Positions 55,969 to 62,057 of a DNA stretch of 64,000 nucleotides are shown in pieces. Both the position numbers and the translations under genes were made by a program. How positions within the stretch are numbered: the first letter of the stretch is position 1; each line of letters opens with the position of its first letter. The stretch comes from Methylosinus sp. C49. GTDB lineage: Bacteria > Pseudomonadota > Alphaproteobacteria > Rhizobiales > Beijerinckiaceae. Below the pieces are notes generated by a model that worked only from the letters and a program-made list of their open reading frames with translations, was not told the origin of the DNA and made no database searches. The stretch lies in the NCBI RefSeq assembly GCF_009936375.1, contig NZ_AP022332.1, positions 930,001 to 994,000 on the forward strand, read 5' to 3'.

Positions 55969-57066
55969 ATGAGCAACGCGACGCTCGACGGCAAATCCAT
56001 TTCTTCCGAAGACGCCTACGAAAAAGCGGCCGAAATCCTGCAAGCCGCGAATTTCCCCCTCGTCGCCGGTCTCGGCGCCGATGTGGCGGGAGCCCAGGCC
56101 GCGATCTTGCTGGCCGAGCGGCTGAGAGGCGCTTTCGATCATCTCGCCTCGCGCGATTCGCTGGCCGACCTCGAAGTCGTCCGCTCCGCGGGGATTTTCG
56201 TGACGACGCCCAATGAGGCCCGCGTGCGCGCCGACCTCGTGCTGCTGGTCGGCCCGGGGCTCACGGGCTATTGGCCGGCGATCTTCGATCGCCTGGCGCT
56301 CGACAAGGAGACGGTCCACGGCGGCAAGACCAAGCGCCGCGTGATCTGGGTCGGCCCCAAGCGGGGCGAGGCCAAGATCGAGGGCGTCGATGTCGAGACC
56401 ATTCCGGCGACCGAGGCGGAGCTTCCCGGCGTGCTGGCGGCGCTGCGCGCGCGCGTCGGCGGACGGCCCGTGGCGCTTCCGCCGGCCGCGGCCAAGAAGC
56501 TCGACGCGGCGGCCGAGGCGCTGAGATCGGCGCGATTCGGCGTCGCCGTCTGGTCGGCGGCCGGGCTCGATTCGCTGATGGTGGAAATGCTGCAGGGCAT
56601 GATCACCGAGCTCAACGCCACGACGCGCTTCACCGGCGTGCCGATCGGCGGCAGGGGGAACGCCACCGGCGTGCTGCAGACCTCCGCCTGGATGACCGGC
56701 TTTCCGCCGCGCACCGGCTTCGGCCGCGGCTATCCCGAGCACGACACTTGGCGCTTCGAGGCCAGCCGGCTCGTCGAGAGCGGCGAGGCCGACGCCGCGC
56801 TGTGGATTTCCGCCTATAGCGGCGAGGCGCCGCCGTGGGAGGATGTCGATATTCCGCTGATAACGCTGGGACCGCCGGGCTCGGCCCCCAAGCATGGCCT
56901 GTTCATCGCCGTCGGCAAGCCGGGCGAGAATTACGACGCGGTGGAGTTCGCGCAGGAGACCAGCTCCATGGTGCTACGGCGGGCGGGCGCGCCGGCCGAG
57001 TTGCCGACGGTCGCCGAGGCGATCGCCGCCATCAGCGCCAAATTTTCGGAGGACTTGCCGTGCTGA
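55969..57066 (+). CDS. fhcB: Formyltransferase/hydrolase complex subunit B
   Basis: A 365-residue protein related to the molybdopterin subunit (FwdB/FmdB) of formylmethanofuran dehydrogenase but much shorter and without the cofactor-binding Cys/Sec site, as in methylotroph FhcB. It is a structural, non-redox subunit of the cytoplasmic Fhc complex, which converts formyl-H4MPT to formate via formylmethylofuran. The start at 55969 (MSNATLDGKSISSED) opens the operon. The stop overlaps the first fhcA by seven bases. FhcB normally pairs with one FhcA type; here two are available. Confidence 0.9.
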   Translation: MSNATLDGKSISSEDAYEKAAEILQAANFPLVAGLGADVAGAQAAILLAERLRGAFDHLASRDSLADLEVVRSAGIFVTTPNEARVRADLVLLVGPGLTGYWPAIFDRLALDKETVHGGKTKRRVIWVGPKRGEAKIEGVDVETIPATEAELPGVLAALRARVGGRPVALPPAAAKKLDAAAEALRSARFGVAVWSAAGLDSLMVEMLQGMITELNATTRFTGVPIGGRGNATGVLQTSAWMTGFPPRTGFGRGYPEHDTWRFEASRLVESGEADAALWISAYSGEAPPWEDVDIPLITLGPPGSAPKHGLFIAVGKPGENYDAVEFAQETSSMVLRRAGAPAELPTVAEAIAAISAKFSEDLPC

Positions 57067-58694
57067 TCCGTCTGCGCGGCGGTCATGTCGTCGATCCCGC
57101 GACGGGCGTCGACGGCGTCGCCGACGTCTATTTCGAGGATGGGCGGATCGTCGCTCCGCCGCAGGGCCGCGAGCCGGACGAGGATTACGACGTCTCCGGC
57201 CATATCGTCATGGCCGGCGCGATCGACATCCACTCTCATATCGCCGGCGGCAATGTGAATTCGGCGCGGCTGCTGCTGCCCGAGATGCACCGCTCGATCC
57301 GCGCGCGCCTCGACGGAACGCCGCTCGCGACTGCCAAATGGTCGACCTTCGAGACCGGCCGCCTCTATGCGCAAATGGGCTTCACCACTGTGGTCGAGCC
57401 CGCCGTCGCGCCGCACCATGCGCTGCAGTCGCATTTGGAGCTCGGCGACGTTCCGATCATCGACAAGGGCGCGCTGACGGTGCTCGGCAATGACGACTTC
57501 CTGCTCGCCGCGCTGCGCGAGCGGGAGAGCGAGACCGCCATCGCCGATTATGTCGCGCAGACCGTCGAGGCGACGGGCACGCTCGGCCTCAAATGCATCA
57601 ATCCCGGCGGGGCGGACGCGTTCAAGCAGAATATGCGCGCCTTCGGCCTCGACGAGATCGTGCCCTTCTATGGCGTGACCTCTCGGCAGATTTTCAAATC
57701 GCTGCAAAAGGCGACGCAGACGGTCGGCATTCCGCATCCGCTGCATCTGCACATGAACAATCTCGGCATCGCCGGCAATATCGACACGGCGCTCGCGACG
57801 ATCGACGCCGCCGAGGGCCTGCCGATGCATCTCGCCCATGTGCAATTCTACGCCTATGGCCTCGAGGGCAAGAACGCCTTCTCCTCCGCGGCCCCCGCGC
57901 TCGCGGCCAAGATCAACGCCAATAAGAACATCACCGTCGACGTCGGCGCTGTGATGTTCGGCGACACGGTGACCATCTCCTCCGACGTGCTGCGCCAGTT
58001 CAACAGCCTGTCGGGCGCGATCCCGAAGAAGGGCGTGATCTTCGACGGCGACGCCAATGGCGGCGGCGTCGTGCCCTACGCCTATCGCATCTCCAATTAC
58101 TACAACGCGATACAATGGGCGGCGGGCCTCGAGCTGTTCCTGCTGATCGAGGATCCGCTGCAGGTCTTCTTCACCACCGACCATCCCAATGGCGGGCCGT
58201 TCACAACCTATCCCGAGCTGTTCGCGCTGCTGATGAGCGCGGAGCTGCGCGCGCAATGGATGGAGCGCCTGCCGGCCGATGTGCTGGAAATGACGACTCT
58301 CCCGTCGATCAAGCGCGAATATACGCTCCATGAGATCGCGCTGATGAGCCGGACCGGACCGGCGCGGCTCTATGGCTTTGCCGATCGCGGTCGTCTCGGC
58401 GAAGGCGCCGTCGCCGATATCGCCGTCTATAAGCCGCAGAAGGACAAGGCGGGCATGTTCCGCAACGCCGCCTATGTGTTCAAGGACGGCGAGAATGTCG
58501 TGCGCGACGGCGTCGTGACGCGCTACACGAAGGGCAAGACGCTGCGCGTGCGCCCCGGCTACGACCGCGCGATCGAGAAGCGTCTCGACGCCTATTACGA
58601 CGAGCTCTATGGCCTCTCGCGCTCGATCTTCGACGTGCCCGAGGCGGCGCTCGCCGGCCGCAGCGTCTATGCGGAGGTCGCATGCCGCAATTGA
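57060..58694 (+). CDS. fhcA: Formyltransferase/hydrolase complex subunit A, first copy
   Basis: A 544-residue amidohydrolase-superfamily hydrolase that releases formate from formylmethylofuran. It starts at a GTG with GGAGG seven bases upstream, overlapping fhcB. Metal-site residues are present: HSH with His 58 and 60, candidate carboxylated Lys 178 (GLKCINPGG), HLHMNN near 229-234, HLAHVQFYAYG near 257-267, and the catalytic Asp in TTDHPNG near 374. It is collinear, without gaps, with the second copy 22 bases downstream and about 70% identical to it over residues 1-200 by hand count. Nothing suggests inactivation. Confidence 0.92.
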   Translation: MLIRLRGGHVVDPATGVDGVADVYFEDGRIVAPPQGREPDEDYDVSGHIVMAGAIDIHSHIAGGNVNSARLLLPEMHRSIRARLDGTPLATAKWSTFETGRLYAQMGFTTVVEPAVAPHHALQSHLELGDVPIIDKGALTVLGNDDFLLAALRERESETAIADYVAQTVEATGTLGLKCINPGGADAFKQNMRAFGLDEIVPFYGVTSRQIFKSLQKATQTVGIPHPLHLHMNNLGIAGNIDTALATIDAAEGLPMHLAHVQFYAYGLEGKNAFSSAAPALAAKINANKNITVDVGAVMFGDTVTISSDVLRQFNSLSGAIPKKGVIFDGDANGGGVVPYAYRISNYYNAIQWAAGLELFLLIEDPLQVFFTTDHPNGGPFTTYPELFALLMSAELRAQWMERLPADVLEMTTLPSIKREYTLHEIALMSRTGPARLYGFADRGRLGEGAVADIAVYKPQKDKAGMFRNAAYVFKDGENVVRDGVVTRYTKGKTLRVRPGYDRAIEKRLDAYYDELYGLSRSIFDVPEAALAGRSVYAEVACRN

Positions 58695-58723
58695 TTCGCC
58701 ATTGGGAGCACGCGTCATGCTGA
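58682..58723 (+). other. Relic fhcD start forming a 13-codon mini-ORF
   Basis: ggaggtcgc then ATGCCGCAATTGATTCGC encodes MPQLIR, the same six residues that open the real fhcD at 60339. The mini-ORF continues HWEHASC to a TGA at 58721-58723, overlapping the second fhcA start (ATG at 58717). It overlaps the first fhcA by 13 bases, exactly as fhcD overlaps the second fhcA. It marks the breakpoint of the tandem duplication and may relay ribosomes between the two genes. Confidence 0.85.
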
Positions 58724-60351
58724 CCCGTCTCTACGGCGGCCATGTCGTCGACCCGGTCAATAATGTCGATGGCGTCGGCGACCTCTATTTCGAGGACGGC
58801 CGCATCGTCGCGCCGCCCGCCGGCCGCACGCCCGATGTCGAGCATGACGTCTCCGGCCATATCATCATGGCCGGCGCCATAGACATCCACTCGCATATCG
58901 CTGGCGGCGGCGTGAACACCGCGCGTCTGCTGCTGCCGGAGGCGCATCGCGCGCATCGGCCGCGGCCCGCCAACACGCCGTTGTCGACGGCCGGCTGGTC
59001 CACCTTCGAGACCGGCCGCCTCTATGCGCAAATGGGCTACACCACCGTCATAGAGCCGGCCGTGTCGCCCCACCACGCGCTGCACGCCCATCTCGAACTC
59101 GCCGATATTCCGATCATCGACAAGGGCTTCCTGACGGTGCTCGGAAACGAGGATTTCCTCCTCTCCGCCTTCCGCGACGGCGCGAGCCAGGATTCGGCGG
59201 TCGATTATATCGGCGCCACGCTCGAGGCGACGCGCGCGATCGGCGTCAAATGCGTGAACGCCGGCGGCGTCGACGCCTTCAAGCAGAATATCCGCCATTT
59301 CTCGCTCGACGATGTGGTGCCGGAATATGGCCTCTCCTCGCGCGAGATTTTCCAGACCTTGCAGCGGGCGGTGAACGCCACCAAGATCCGCCATCCGCTG
59401 CATCTGCACATGAATAATCTCGGCCTGCCCGGCAATGTCGAGACGGCGCTGGCGACGATCGACTCCTCGCAGGGCCTGCCGCTGCATCTCGCCCATGTGC
59501 AATTCTACGCCTATGGCACAGAGGGCAAGAACGGCTTCTCCTCCGCGGCGGCGCGATTCGCCGAGAAGATCAACGCCAATAAGAATGTCACCGTCGACGT
59601 CGGTCAGGTGATGTTCGCCGAGATCGTGACGATCTCCTCCGATGTGATGAAGCAGTTCAACAGCCTGCCCGGCGGCCGGCCGAAGAAGGGCGTCATCTTC
59701 GACGGCGACTCCAACGGTCTCGGCGTGGTGCCCTATTCCTACCGCGTGTCGGACTTCTTCAATGCGGTGCAATGGGCGGCGGGCCTCGAGCTGTTCCTGC
59801 TGGTCGATGATCCGATGCAGGTGTTCTTCACCACCGATCATCCCAATGGCGCGCCCTTCACCACCTATCCAGAAGTCTTCGCTCTGCTGATGAGCGCCGA
59901 CAAGCGCGCGCAATATTGCTCGCGCCTGCCGGCCGATGTGCTGGAGCTGACCAATCTTCCGGCGCTGAAGCGTGAATATTCCTTCTATGAGATCGCGACC
60001 ATGACCCGCGCGGCGCCGCGCAAGCTCTATGGCTTCGAGGATCGCGGCCAATTGGGCGCGGGATCGGTCGCCGATATTGCGGTCTACAAGCCGCAGAAGG
60101 ACAAAGCGGCAATGTTCCGCAGCGCCGCCTATGTCTTCAAGGATGGCAATCTCGTCGTGCGCGACGGCAAAGTCTCGCATTACACCAAGGGAAGGACGCT
60201 GCGCGTGCGGCCCGAATACGATCGCAAGATCAACAGTCGCCTCGACAAATATTACGACGGCCTCTACGGCCTGCCGCGCTCGCTGTTCGAGGTGCAGGAT
60301 GCGGCGCTCCCCAATGCGGACGCCTTCGCGGAGGTCCCATGCCGCAGCTGA
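58717..60351 (+). CDS. fhcA: Formyltransferase/hydrolase complex subunit A, second copy
   Basis: A 544-residue paralogue of the preceding gene with the same motifs: HSH at 58-60, Lys 178 in GVKCVNAGG, HLHMNN, HLAHVQFYAYG and TTDHPNG. It starts at an ATG with ggag eight bases upstream. Differences concentrate in surface-like stretches (about residues 80-90 and 151-175) and the C-terminus. Being directly upstream of fhcD with the ancestral 13-base overlap, this copy holds the ordinary operon position. The two A subunits may form alternative or mixed complexes with FhcB, C and D. Confidence 0.92.
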   Translation: MLTRLYGGHVVDPVNNVDGVGDLYFEDGRIVAPPAGRTPDVEHDVSGHIIMAGAIDIHSHIAGGGVNTARLLLPEAHRAHRPRPANTPLSTAGWSTFETGRLYAQMGYTTVIEPAVSPHHALHAHLELADIPIIDKGFLTVLGNEDFLLSAFRDGASQDSAVDYIGATLEATRAIGVKCVNAGGVDAFKQNIRHFSLDDVVPEYGLSSREIFQTLQRAVNATKIRHPLHLHMNNLGLPGNVETALATIDSSQGLPLHLAHVQFYAYGTEGKNGFSSAAARFAEKINANKNVTVDVGQVMFAEIVTISSDVMKQFNSLPGGRPKKGVIFDGDSNGLGVVPYSYRVSDFFNAVQWAAGLELFLLVDDPMQVFFTTDHPNGAPFTTYPEVFALLMSADKRAQYCSRLPADVLELTNLPALKREYSFYEIATMTRAAPRKLYGFEDRGQLGAGSVADIAVYKPQKDKAAMFRSAAYVFKDGNLVVRDGKVSHYTKGRTLRVRPEYDRKINSRLDKYYDGLYGLPRSLFEVQDAALPNADAFAEVPCRS

Positions 60352-61244
60352 TCCGCAAGGGAATTCGCATCGACGAGAGCTTCGCCGAGGCCTTTCCGAT
60401 GACCGGCTCCGGCGTGGTCGTCACCGCGCCGACCCGCAAATGGGCCTTGCAGGCCGCGACCACCATGACCGGCTACGCCACATCGGTCATCGGCTGCGAC
60501 TGCGAGGCCGGCATAGACCGCGAGCTGTCGACGCGCGAGACGCCGGACGGACGTCCGGGCGTGCGCGTGCTGCTCTTCGGCTTCTCGCCCAAGAGCGTCG
60601 AGAAGGCGCTGGTCAATCGCATCGGCCAATGCGTGCTGACCTGTCCCGGCTCGGCCGTCTTCTCCGCCTTCGACGGCGAGGCGAAGATCAAGGTCGGCGA
60701 CTCCATGCGCCAATTCGGCGACAAATGGCAGATTTCCAAGGCGATCGACGGCCGCCGCTATTGGCGCGTGCCGGTGATGGACGGCGAGTTCCTGGTGGAA
60801 TCTTCCGTCGGCCTCACCAAGAAATCGGTCGGCGGCGGCAATCTGCTCATCATGGGCGAGGATTGGGCCAAGACCATGCGCGCCACCGAGGCCGCCGTGG
60901 AGGCCGTCCACAATACGCCCGACGCCATCGCGCCTTTCCCCGGCGGCGTGGTGCGCTCCGGCTCCAAGGTCGGCTCGAAATATAAGGGCATGGGCGCCTC
61001 GACCAATGACGCCTATTGTCCGACGCTGCGCGGCGCGACCAATAGCGCGCTCGACGCCGACATCGGCTGCGTGCTGGAGATCGTCATCGACGGATTGACC
61101 AGCGAGGCGGTCGCGGCGGGAATGCGCGCCGGCTTGAAGGCGATCATCGCGCTCGGCCCCAAGAATGGCGCGAAACGCGTCGGCGCCGGCAATTACGGCG
61201 GCAAGCTCGGCCCCTTCCACTATCATTTGAAGGATCTCGTGTAA
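60339..61244 (+). CDS. fhcD: Formylmethanofuran:tetrahydromethanopterin formyltransferase
   Basis: A 301-residue Ftr-family protein, full length. It starts MPQLIRKGIRIDESFAEAF and has the Ftr segments AMVCD-like DCEAGIDRELSTRETPDGR, CPGSAVFSAFDG and KYKGMGASTNDAYCPTLRG. It transfers the formyl group between tetrahydromethanopterin and methylofuran. Its ATG lies inside the end of the second fhcA (13-base overlap) with a GGAGGT site. The fhcC start follows its stop immediately. Confidence 0.95.
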   Translation: MPQLIRKGIRIDESFAEAFPMTGSGVVVTAPTRKWALQAATTMTGYATSVIGCDCEAGIDRELSTRETPDGRPGVRVLLFGFSPKSVEKALVNRIGQCVLTCPGSAVFSAFDGEAKIKVGDSMRQFGDKWQISKAIDGRRYWRVPVMDGEFLVESSVGLTKKSVGGGNLLIMGEDWAKTMRATEAAVEAVHNTPDAIAPFPGGVVRSGSKVGSKYKGMGASTNDAYCPTLRGATNSALDADIGCVLEIVIDGLTSEAVAAGMRAGLKAIIALGPKNGAKRVGAGNYGGKLGPFHYHLKDLV

Positions 61245-62057
61245 GTGAAGCCGCTTCTCTTCACGCTGAAAGCCGAGCCCGACCAGCGGCTCGACCTCTC
61301 GCCCCTGACGCCCGATCGGCTCGTCGGCCGCTCGGCGAAGGAAATCGAGACTCTGTCCATCGGCACGACGCGCGAGAGCGTGACGGTCGGCGATATCTTC
61401 AAGGTCAAGCTCGGCGACGCGACCTCGGTGCGCTTCGACGGCGGCTCCGACCGTTTCGACCTTCTCGGCGCCAAGCTGCTGCCGGGCTTCGAGATTCATG
61501 TCGAGGGCGATGTCGGCGCGCAGCTCGGCCGCGCGGCCAAGGGCGGGACCATCACGGTCGCCGGCGACGCCGGCCCCTATGTCGCCTCGCAATCGGCGGG
61601 CGCGAATATCGATATTTACGGCGACGCCGGGGATTTCCTGGGCGCGCCGCTGGCGGGCGAGATCCCCGGCATGTCCGGCGGCCGCGTCGTGGTGCGCGGC
61701 AGCGTCGGCGCGCGTTGCGGAGATCGGCTGCGCCGCGGCATCATCATCGTCGAGGGCGATGCGGGCGAGGATTTGGGCGCTAGAGCCATCGCCGGCACCA
61801 TCATCGTGCTGGGGACGGCCGAGGGCGAGCGCATCGGCTATCTCAACAAGCGCGCTACAATCGTGCTCTCCGAGCAGCGCGAGCTCGGACCGACTTACGT
61901 GGATTGCGGCGCGCATAATCTCGGCTTCGCCAAGCTCTTCGCCAAATCTCTGGCGGCAGAGAGCCGCGGCGCCTCGCGCCTGCTCTCCGGCCGTCTGCAG
62001 CGCTTCGCCGGCGACACGGCGGTGTTCGGCAAGGGCGAGGTGCTGCTGCCGGCGTGA
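61245..62057 (+). CDS. fhcC: Formyltransferase/hydrolase complex subunit C
   Basis: A 270-residue FwdC/GltB-C-like beta-helix protein: repeated G-x-x-G-x-x-x-G units run from GDVGAQLGRAAKGG through GDAGDFLGAPL to GDAGEDLGARAIAG. It is a structural subunit of the Fhc complex with no redox centre. It starts at a GTG directly after the fhcD stop codon. It ends the operon, 38 bases before the convergent MarR gene. Confidence 0.92.
   Translation: MKPLLFTLKAEPDQRLDLSPLTPDRLVGRSAKEIETLSIGTTRESVTVGDIFKVKLGDATSVRFDGGSDRFDLLGAKLLPGFEIHVEGDVGAQLGRAAKGGTITVAGDAGPYVASQSAGANIDIYGDAGDFLGAPLAGEIPGMSGGRVVVRGSVGARCGDRLRRGIIIVEGDAGEDLGARAIAGTIIVLGTAEGERIGYLNKRATIVLSEQRELGPTYVDCGAHNLGFAKLFAKSLAAESRGASRLLSGRLQRFAGDTAVFGKGEVLLPA

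Follow-up and report, generated by a model that had tools for sequence, protein, structure and literature searches.

The fhc operon of Methylosinus sp. C49 carries two adjacent genes for FhcA, the catalytic subunit of Fhc, the enzyme that yields formate in the principal pathway by which methane-oxidising bacteria oxidise formaldehyde. The operon lies in a stretch of 64,000 nucleotides (contig NZ_AP022332.1, positions 930,001 to 994,000 of the forward strand; hereafter the window); the genome spans 4.70 Mb on 5 contigs. With this side-by-side pair, the operon is an unusual form of a methylotrophy gene cluster that is otherwise well known. We consider it probable that the two genes encode anciently diverged catalytic subunits, which would descend from an ancestral tandem duplication followed by losses and would form two, or mixed, complexes with a single set of FhcB, FhcC and FhcD. 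The genes run in the order fhcB-fhcA1-fhcA2-fhcD-fhcC, with the following coordinates in the window:

55969 to 57066, forward strand: fhcB, 365 residues (TIGR03129 154 bits, below the model cut-off of 327.8)
57060 to 58694, forward strand: fhcA1, type I FhcA, 544 residues plus stop; begins with GTG, with an overlap of 7 nucleotides with the fhcB stop
58682 to 58716, forward strand: A1/A2 junction; a stretch like the fhcD start (58682-58699, ATGCCGCAATTGATTCGC), then a stretch like the fhcB end with its ribosome site, ahead of the A2 start
58717 to 60351, forward strand: fhcA2, type II FhcA, 544 residues plus stop; start ATGCTGA
60339 to 61244, forward strand: fhcD, 301 residues; its start overlaps the fhcA2 end by 13 nucleotides
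61245 to 62057, forward strand: fhcC, 270 residues; gap to fhcD 0 nucleotides

These coordinates confirm the order B-A-A-D-C that an earlier note on this DNA had proposed. Both A proteins exceed the cut-off of NCBIfam TIGR03121 (392.75 bits), with 608.1 bits for A1 and 599.1 for A2, and both are FhcA; FhcB is so named because a weak match to its model coincides with the position of the gene. The genes for B, D and C, with which both A genes are encoded, occur once each in the window's own genome, as the note had stated, and exactly one fhcB match was found in each of ten genomes of the genus. An Rfam scan of the window gave no matches. The operon resembles the methylotroph fhcBADC operon in its four families, their order and the overlapping starts, and A1 and A2 both match chain A of PDB entry 6s6y, which we take to be the M. 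extorquens Fhc complex, over residues 1-543 of 544. It differs in holding two A genes of two old types, whereas every operon fetched from outside Methylosinus has a single A gene.

The two proteins align without gaps and are identical at 386 of 544 positions (71%) over their whole length. His58, His60, Lys178, His229, His231, His257, His260 and Asp374 are kept in both, together with TTDHPNG, and the single residues are kept in each of the 60 tabulated rows that have a letter there. The four His, the carboxylated Lys and the Asp of a di-metal amidohydrolase site are thereby present in both proteins. The ratio of nonsynonymous to synonymous divergence (dN/dS), estimated by the Nei-Gojobori method (NG86) over 10 pairs from the five genomes with adjacent fhcA genes (the tandem genomes), lies in the range 0.044-0.218 for A1 and in the range 0.107-0.151 for A2, and neither copy has an internal stop codon in any of the five. 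With such ratios, and with both copies old and intact, neither looks like a decaying pseudogene. The earlier note was thus right about the gapless 544-residue proteins, the retained metal-site motifs (H58, H60, K178, TTDHPNG) and the long maintenance of both copies, which are under purifying selection. Of the distinct roles that it suggested, mixed A1/A2 complexes may exist, and different expression conditions find no support, as the copies lie 22 nucleotides apart in one operon.

Distribution and age of the two FhcA types

Within the genus, an operon with two A genes is not the rule. Two adjacent fhcA genes occur in five of ten Methylosinus genomes (G000, G001, G003, G005 and G009) and a single fhcA in the other five (G002, G004, G006, G007 and G008); in G007, a fragmentary genome, fhcB joins a type II fhcA directly, so that there is no A1 in the usual place. 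No description of a two-fhcA operon was found in the accessible text of open-licence literature on fhcA duplication or paralogues, Methylosinus and Methylocystis. In the family sample, an FhcA match at 1e-60 was obtained in 132 of 397 genomes, with more than one match only in Methylosinus and Methylocystis. The order sample gave a match in 79 of 397 genomes, and four genomes outside the family show two matches, three of them on separate contigs, while in the fourth (G695) the two read as adjoining fragments of a single gene. Outside Methylosinus, neither sample yielded an adjacent pair, with up to three candidates scored in each genome. In the matches listed (80 named loci), copies are adjacent only in L032, from Methylosinus sp. 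Ce-a6, whose A1, at 94% identity, is the nearest named record to the A1 of the window. No adjacent pair was present in the 30 Methylocystis genomes with loci fetched (37 Methylocystis genomes had a match). Their fetched operons carry type I in 26 of 29 cases and type II in three, and nine of the 30 genomes have a type II fhcA outside the operon, here called an orphan.

The types were defined on a tree of 64 FhcA rows, 57 of them from Methylosinus and Methylocystis. Type I (35 rows, support 100/99) holds the five Methylosinus A1 proteins and 30 Methylocystis rows (26 operon, 4 orphan), with the A1 rows sister to, and not nested in, those of Methylocystis. Type II (22 rows, 100/98) holds ten Methylosinus proteins (five A2, five single), three Methylocystis operon proteins (G063, which is M. 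heyeri H2, G073 and G075) and the nine Methylocystis orphans. By this tree, the split between the types falls on the stem of Methylosinus and Methylocystis, before these genera separated. A recent duplication inside Methylosinus was considered and is rejected: A1 and A2 are not each other's nearest relatives within the genus, and an approximately unbiased (AU) test rejects placing 14 of the 15 Methylosinus rows, all but G006, in a single clade (log-likelihood difference 122.65, p 1.4e-61; the quick tree behind it covers 60 of the 64 rows, without four long outgroups). The earlier note had called for a search for adjacent pairs and a tree; among the genomes examined, these place the pairs in Methylosinus only, and they make the split older than the genus. 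Its age, the type I genes in 26 of 29 Methylocystis operons and the extra fhcA genes outside the operon in other methylotrophs go beyond that note.

A quick tree of concatenated B, D and C proteins (42 operon rows) groups the eight Methylosinus operons together, with two-A and one-A operons intermixed. Within Methylocystis, G060, which has a type I operon and a type II orphan, groups with the type II operons of G063, G073 and G075. Such mixing of two-A with one-A operons, and of type I with type II operons, would be expected had closely related lineages each lost a different member of an ancestral pair, and such a pair followed by differing losses is the simplest reading. The G060 operon (L160) also has a long branch in this tree, 0.34 vs 0.05-0.11 in its sisters, and a type I FhcA where they have type II; the long branch could reflect either co-adaptation or a fast genome.

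Residues that distinguish the types

At thresholds of 85%, the operon proteins of type I and type II are separated by 31 positions. In addition, every type I operon row that can be read at residue 65 (30 of 30) has Asn there, as do the four type I orphans and six of seven outgroups; in type II the residue is Gly in 19 rows and Ser in three (22 of 22). The window accordingly has Asn in A1 and Gly in A2, and all nine gammaproteobacterial operon copies have Lys. The residue aligns with Lys64 of the archaeal FwdA of M. wolfei, which the accessible part of PMC11656701 proposes, in terms it calls speculative, as a gatekeeper between formate cavity and metal site. The same part names Leu235, Phe274 and Met323 as methanofuran contacts; a type difference at the corresponding positions (235, 263 and 312 in a hand-read alignment) was looked for and rejected, with none at 235 or 263, and with 312 mostly Lys or Arg. 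As judged from the sequences, the differences between A1 and A2 may alter catalysis.

These features suggest how the operon may work. A1 and A2 would be co-transcribed and, each with a di-zinc amidohydrolase site, would compete for the single FhcB/C/D scaffold; the cell would make two alternative or mixed Fhc complexes that release formate from formyl-methylofuran. The complexes would perhaps differ in active-site access (Asn65 in A1, Gly65 in A2), and the balance of A1 and A2 would presumably buffer the flux through formaldehyde oxidation. Only tentatively do we go further and propose that one operon yields two functionally distinct Fhc enzymes, or A1/A2 hybrids, with differently gated type I and type II subunits on one scaffold, and, more broadly, that FhcA may be an exchangeable module of Fhc, duplicated alone in several methylotroph lineages. 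According to the available parts of the sources, methylofuran was not detected in M. trichosporium, where the coenzyme may lie below the detection limit (PMC8141765); repressing the Fhc A and B genes lowers the fitness of Methylococcus capsulatus on methane, and gene repression by CRISPR interference works in M. trichosporium OB3b (both PMC13108547).

A plainer account holds that A1 and A2 are functionally equivalent and kept only for the dosage of the A subunit. The single operon, the identical metal site and purifying selection on both copies agree with it, as does the fact that half of the genus manages without A1 and that extra fhcA genes of various types recur. We nevertheless judge it rather unlikely: in Methylosinus as in Methylocystis, the operon types stay distinct at residue 65 and at the 31 positions (not every one of the 31 holds for the type II orphans), and A1 and A2, side by side in each tandem genome, are still only 76-78% identical as DNA, so that gene conversion has not homogenised them.

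Origin of the adjacent pair

The duplicated unit would have comprised the end of fhcB, fhcA and the start of fhcD, and would have been copied in tandem in an ancestor of Methylosinus and Methylocystis; in later lineages the operon would have retained both A genes or only one of them, of either type, or A2 would have been kept at another site in the genome. The A1/A2 junction resembles what such an event would leave. The sequence at the end of A1, ATGCCGCAATTGATTCGC, is similar to the fhcD start, ATGCCGCAGCTGATCCGC; the stretch after it resembles the fhcB end with its ribosome site, and the ATGCTGA start of fhcA2 retains the CTGA that carries the fhcB stop in single-A operons. Up to and including the A2 start, this stretch agrees with the fhcB end of the same genome at 15-19 of 27 positions across the five tandem genomes; on that strand, 2-12 of 17974 places per locus agree as well, a count that includes the fhcB end and the junction. 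Pieces of the fhcB end or fhcD start also lie beside Methylocystis orphan copies (G068, G069 and G063). Recombination between the 5' ends of the two copies might have removed A1 in single-A species; the first codons of single-A copies resemble the A1 start, but they are also constrained by the overlap with fhcB.

Several observations weigh against an ancestral tandem pair sorted by loss, or against two stably distinct types. The fhcD-like stretch adds few bases past the A1 stop codon and lies mostly in the A1 coding end, and the match to the fhcB end consists partly of a ribosome site and start codon, which any gene may share; for these reasons the junction is support and not proof. We infer the ancestral tandem and do not see it, because no examined genome outside Methylosinus has an adjacent pair. 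The accessible part of PMC3615186 describes M. trichosporium OB3b with a single fhcA, as fhcCDAB. G006 falls outside Methylosinus and Methylocystis in the B+D+C tree, yet inside type II in the A tree, and repeated swapping of A genes could produce the same trees. Synonymous divergence (dS) between G000 and G003 is 0.09 for A1 and 0.20-0.24 for B, A2, D and C; between G000 and G005 it is 0.17 for A1 and 0.19-0.32 for the rest of the operon. The low A1 values suggest exchange of A1 between species. A one-codon deletion common to A1 and A2 of G009, and present in none of the other 20 aligned copies, indicates local gene conversion. Lastly, type II orphans show the type I state at several of the 31 positions, including 182 and 303 in nine of nine.

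Some of these observations would also fit an origin by transfer, in which A1 entered Methylosinus horizontally from a Methylocystis relative and recombined ahead of A2 in a type II operon. A1 is nearer to the type I operon FhcA of Methylocystis (75-79%) than to the neighbouring A2 (71%), and it has apparently been exchanged recently between G000/G001 and G003 (dS 0.07-0.09 vs 0.20-0.24). Against this, the A1 rows stand beside the 30 Methylocystis type I rows and not among them, and A1 dS between G000 and G009 (0.32) is in line with the rest of the operon (0.27-0.40), which suggests that A1 was present before those species split. We consider such a transfer unlikely; an earlier one, from an unsampled lineage, is conceivable.

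fhcA genes outside the operon

Like the tandem genomes, some Methylocystis genomes have a second FhcA, which belongs to type II, like A2, in nine cases and to type I in four (loci L150, L157, L158, L139, L133, L135, L141, L143, L144, L161, L166 and L168). These genes differ from the Methylosinus pair in lying outside the operon, some on plasmids (M. heyeri H2 NZ_CP046053.1, Methylocystis sp. MJC1 NZ_CP107560.1 and M. rosea pGW6_1) and some with pieces of the fhcB or fhcD ends; no fhcB, fhcC or fhcD stands beside them within the fetched stretch. On pGW6_1, two orphan fhcA genes are separated by ~11 kb, in the neighbourhood of pyrC, ilvD, acyl-CoA carboxylase and biotin genes. Two fhcA genes also occur close together in L094, from a Methylohalobius metagenome-assembled genome (MAG), and in L104, from a gammaproteobacterial MAG; there, unlike in Methylosinus, the second fhcA belongs to another operon and the A genes are not adjacent. 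L094 (1-9400) repeats whole operons, B-A-D-C-B-A-D-C, the first more diverged, and L104 has a similar arrangement, with its first operon cut by the end of the stretch.

A third arrangement appears in gammaproteobacterial methanotrophs. A count of fhcA and fhcD in 20 selected genomes found two fhcA and one fhcD in nine, all gammaproteobacterial (three Methylomonas, three Methylobacter and one each of Methylicorpusculum, Methylocaldum and Methylophaga), with one copy beside fhcD and one elsewhere. Of the other 11, L094 and L104 have two copies of both genes, L032 is the Methylosinus tandem, L035 and L036 carry a single fhcA and a single fhcD, and the remaining six, from marine alphaproteobacteria, have one fhcA. 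In these marine genomes, of 1.0-1.4 Mb (L095, L098, L099, L100, L105 and L109), no match to fhcB, fhcD or fhcC was found in the fetched stretch; an fhcD match lies elsewhere in four of six, one of them partial. The gammaproteobacterial orphans form a clade of their own (13 rows; Shimodaira-Hasegawa-like approximate likelihood ratio test 99, quick tree), and the checked metal-site positions are kept in all 13.

Their surroundings point to zinc. By Pfam, neighbours of the orphans include CobW/COG0523-type GTPases, ZIP transporters, DUF1826, FolE2, PTPS (QueD-type) and ThrRS, and a zinc-type context is seen in L074, L078-L081, L084, L088, L089, L091, L092, L102 and L103, weakly in the last two, which are Methylophaga. 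A similarity test used queries from L089, L074 and L080, which match by construction; at least one zinc-type neighbour was found in nine of the ten other orphan loci, as a weak CobW-type match only in L102 and L103, and none in L096 (3.1 kb). No such neighbour was found in the six marine alphaproteobacterial loci, nine gammaproteobacterial operon loci, 61 alphaproteobacterial loci (L112-L172) or the window (tblastn at 1e-8, eight gammaproteobacterial queries).

Zur-like boxes matching a consensus of the gammaproteobacterial form at 12 or more of 14 positions occur in seven of the 13 orphan loci and one of nine gammaproteobacterial operon loci. In six of the seven orphan loci the box precedes the cluster, and in L092 it lies beyond. 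Shuffled sequences reached the score of the best match in 0 of 100 cases for L089, L091, L092, L081, L079 and L078, in 2 for L074 and in 4 for L084; in L080 (91) and L103 (99) the match is not distinct from shuffled sequence. From this context, we predict that the orphan may be a variant, made under zinc starvation, of an enzyme that is key to formaldehyde oxidation. It would parallel the Zur-regulated, COG0523-linked paralogues (PyrC, ThrRS and QueD among others) in being a duplicated zinc amidohydrolase gene, an analogy that holds for the gammaproteobacterial orphan only. The accessible part of PMC2770081 lists nine zinc-enzyme families with Zur-linked paralogues and contains no word beginning 'formyl', and a literature search for COG0523 together with formylmethanofuran gave, in the text available, a match on selenium only; FhcA may therefore be an addition to these families.

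A zinc-starvation role was also considered for the Methylosinus pair, with one copy as a Zur-controlled backup under zinc limitation, and is rejected as very improbable. The di-metal (zinc) site that subunit A of the archaeal enzyme and its relatives carries, according to the available part of PMC11656701, would suit it, as would the example of the gammaproteobacterial orphans among COG0523-type, ZIP and FolE2 genes. The Methylosinus pair differs from the Zur-linked paralogues in lacking the neighbours searched for, both copies sit in the same operon, and no box reached 12 of 14 in the window or in 58 alphaproteobacterial loci (L112-L169; 701,747 bases), which are more GC-rich and not an equal control, and where a variant other than the gammaproteobacterial consensus could be missed. 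Finally, we regard it as extremely unlikely that either copy is a pseudogene, or a relic on which selection has relaxed: Ala297 in A1 of four of the five tandem genomes (Gln in 58 of 59 other rows) and an A1 dN/dS somewhat above that of A2 in more distant pairs would hint at it, but the genes are free of internal stops, dN/dS is at most 0.22 and the metal-site positions are kept.

The arrangement in Methylosinus offers a natural pair of old, conserved catalytic variants with one set of partners, and with it a direct test of what variation in FhcA does. It also corrects a simple picture of the fhc cluster, since subunit A has been duplicated alone repeatedly and is found in three arrangements: in tandem within the operon, as an orphan in Methylocystis, and as an orphan in a zinc-starvation-like cluster of gammaproteobacterial methanotrophs.

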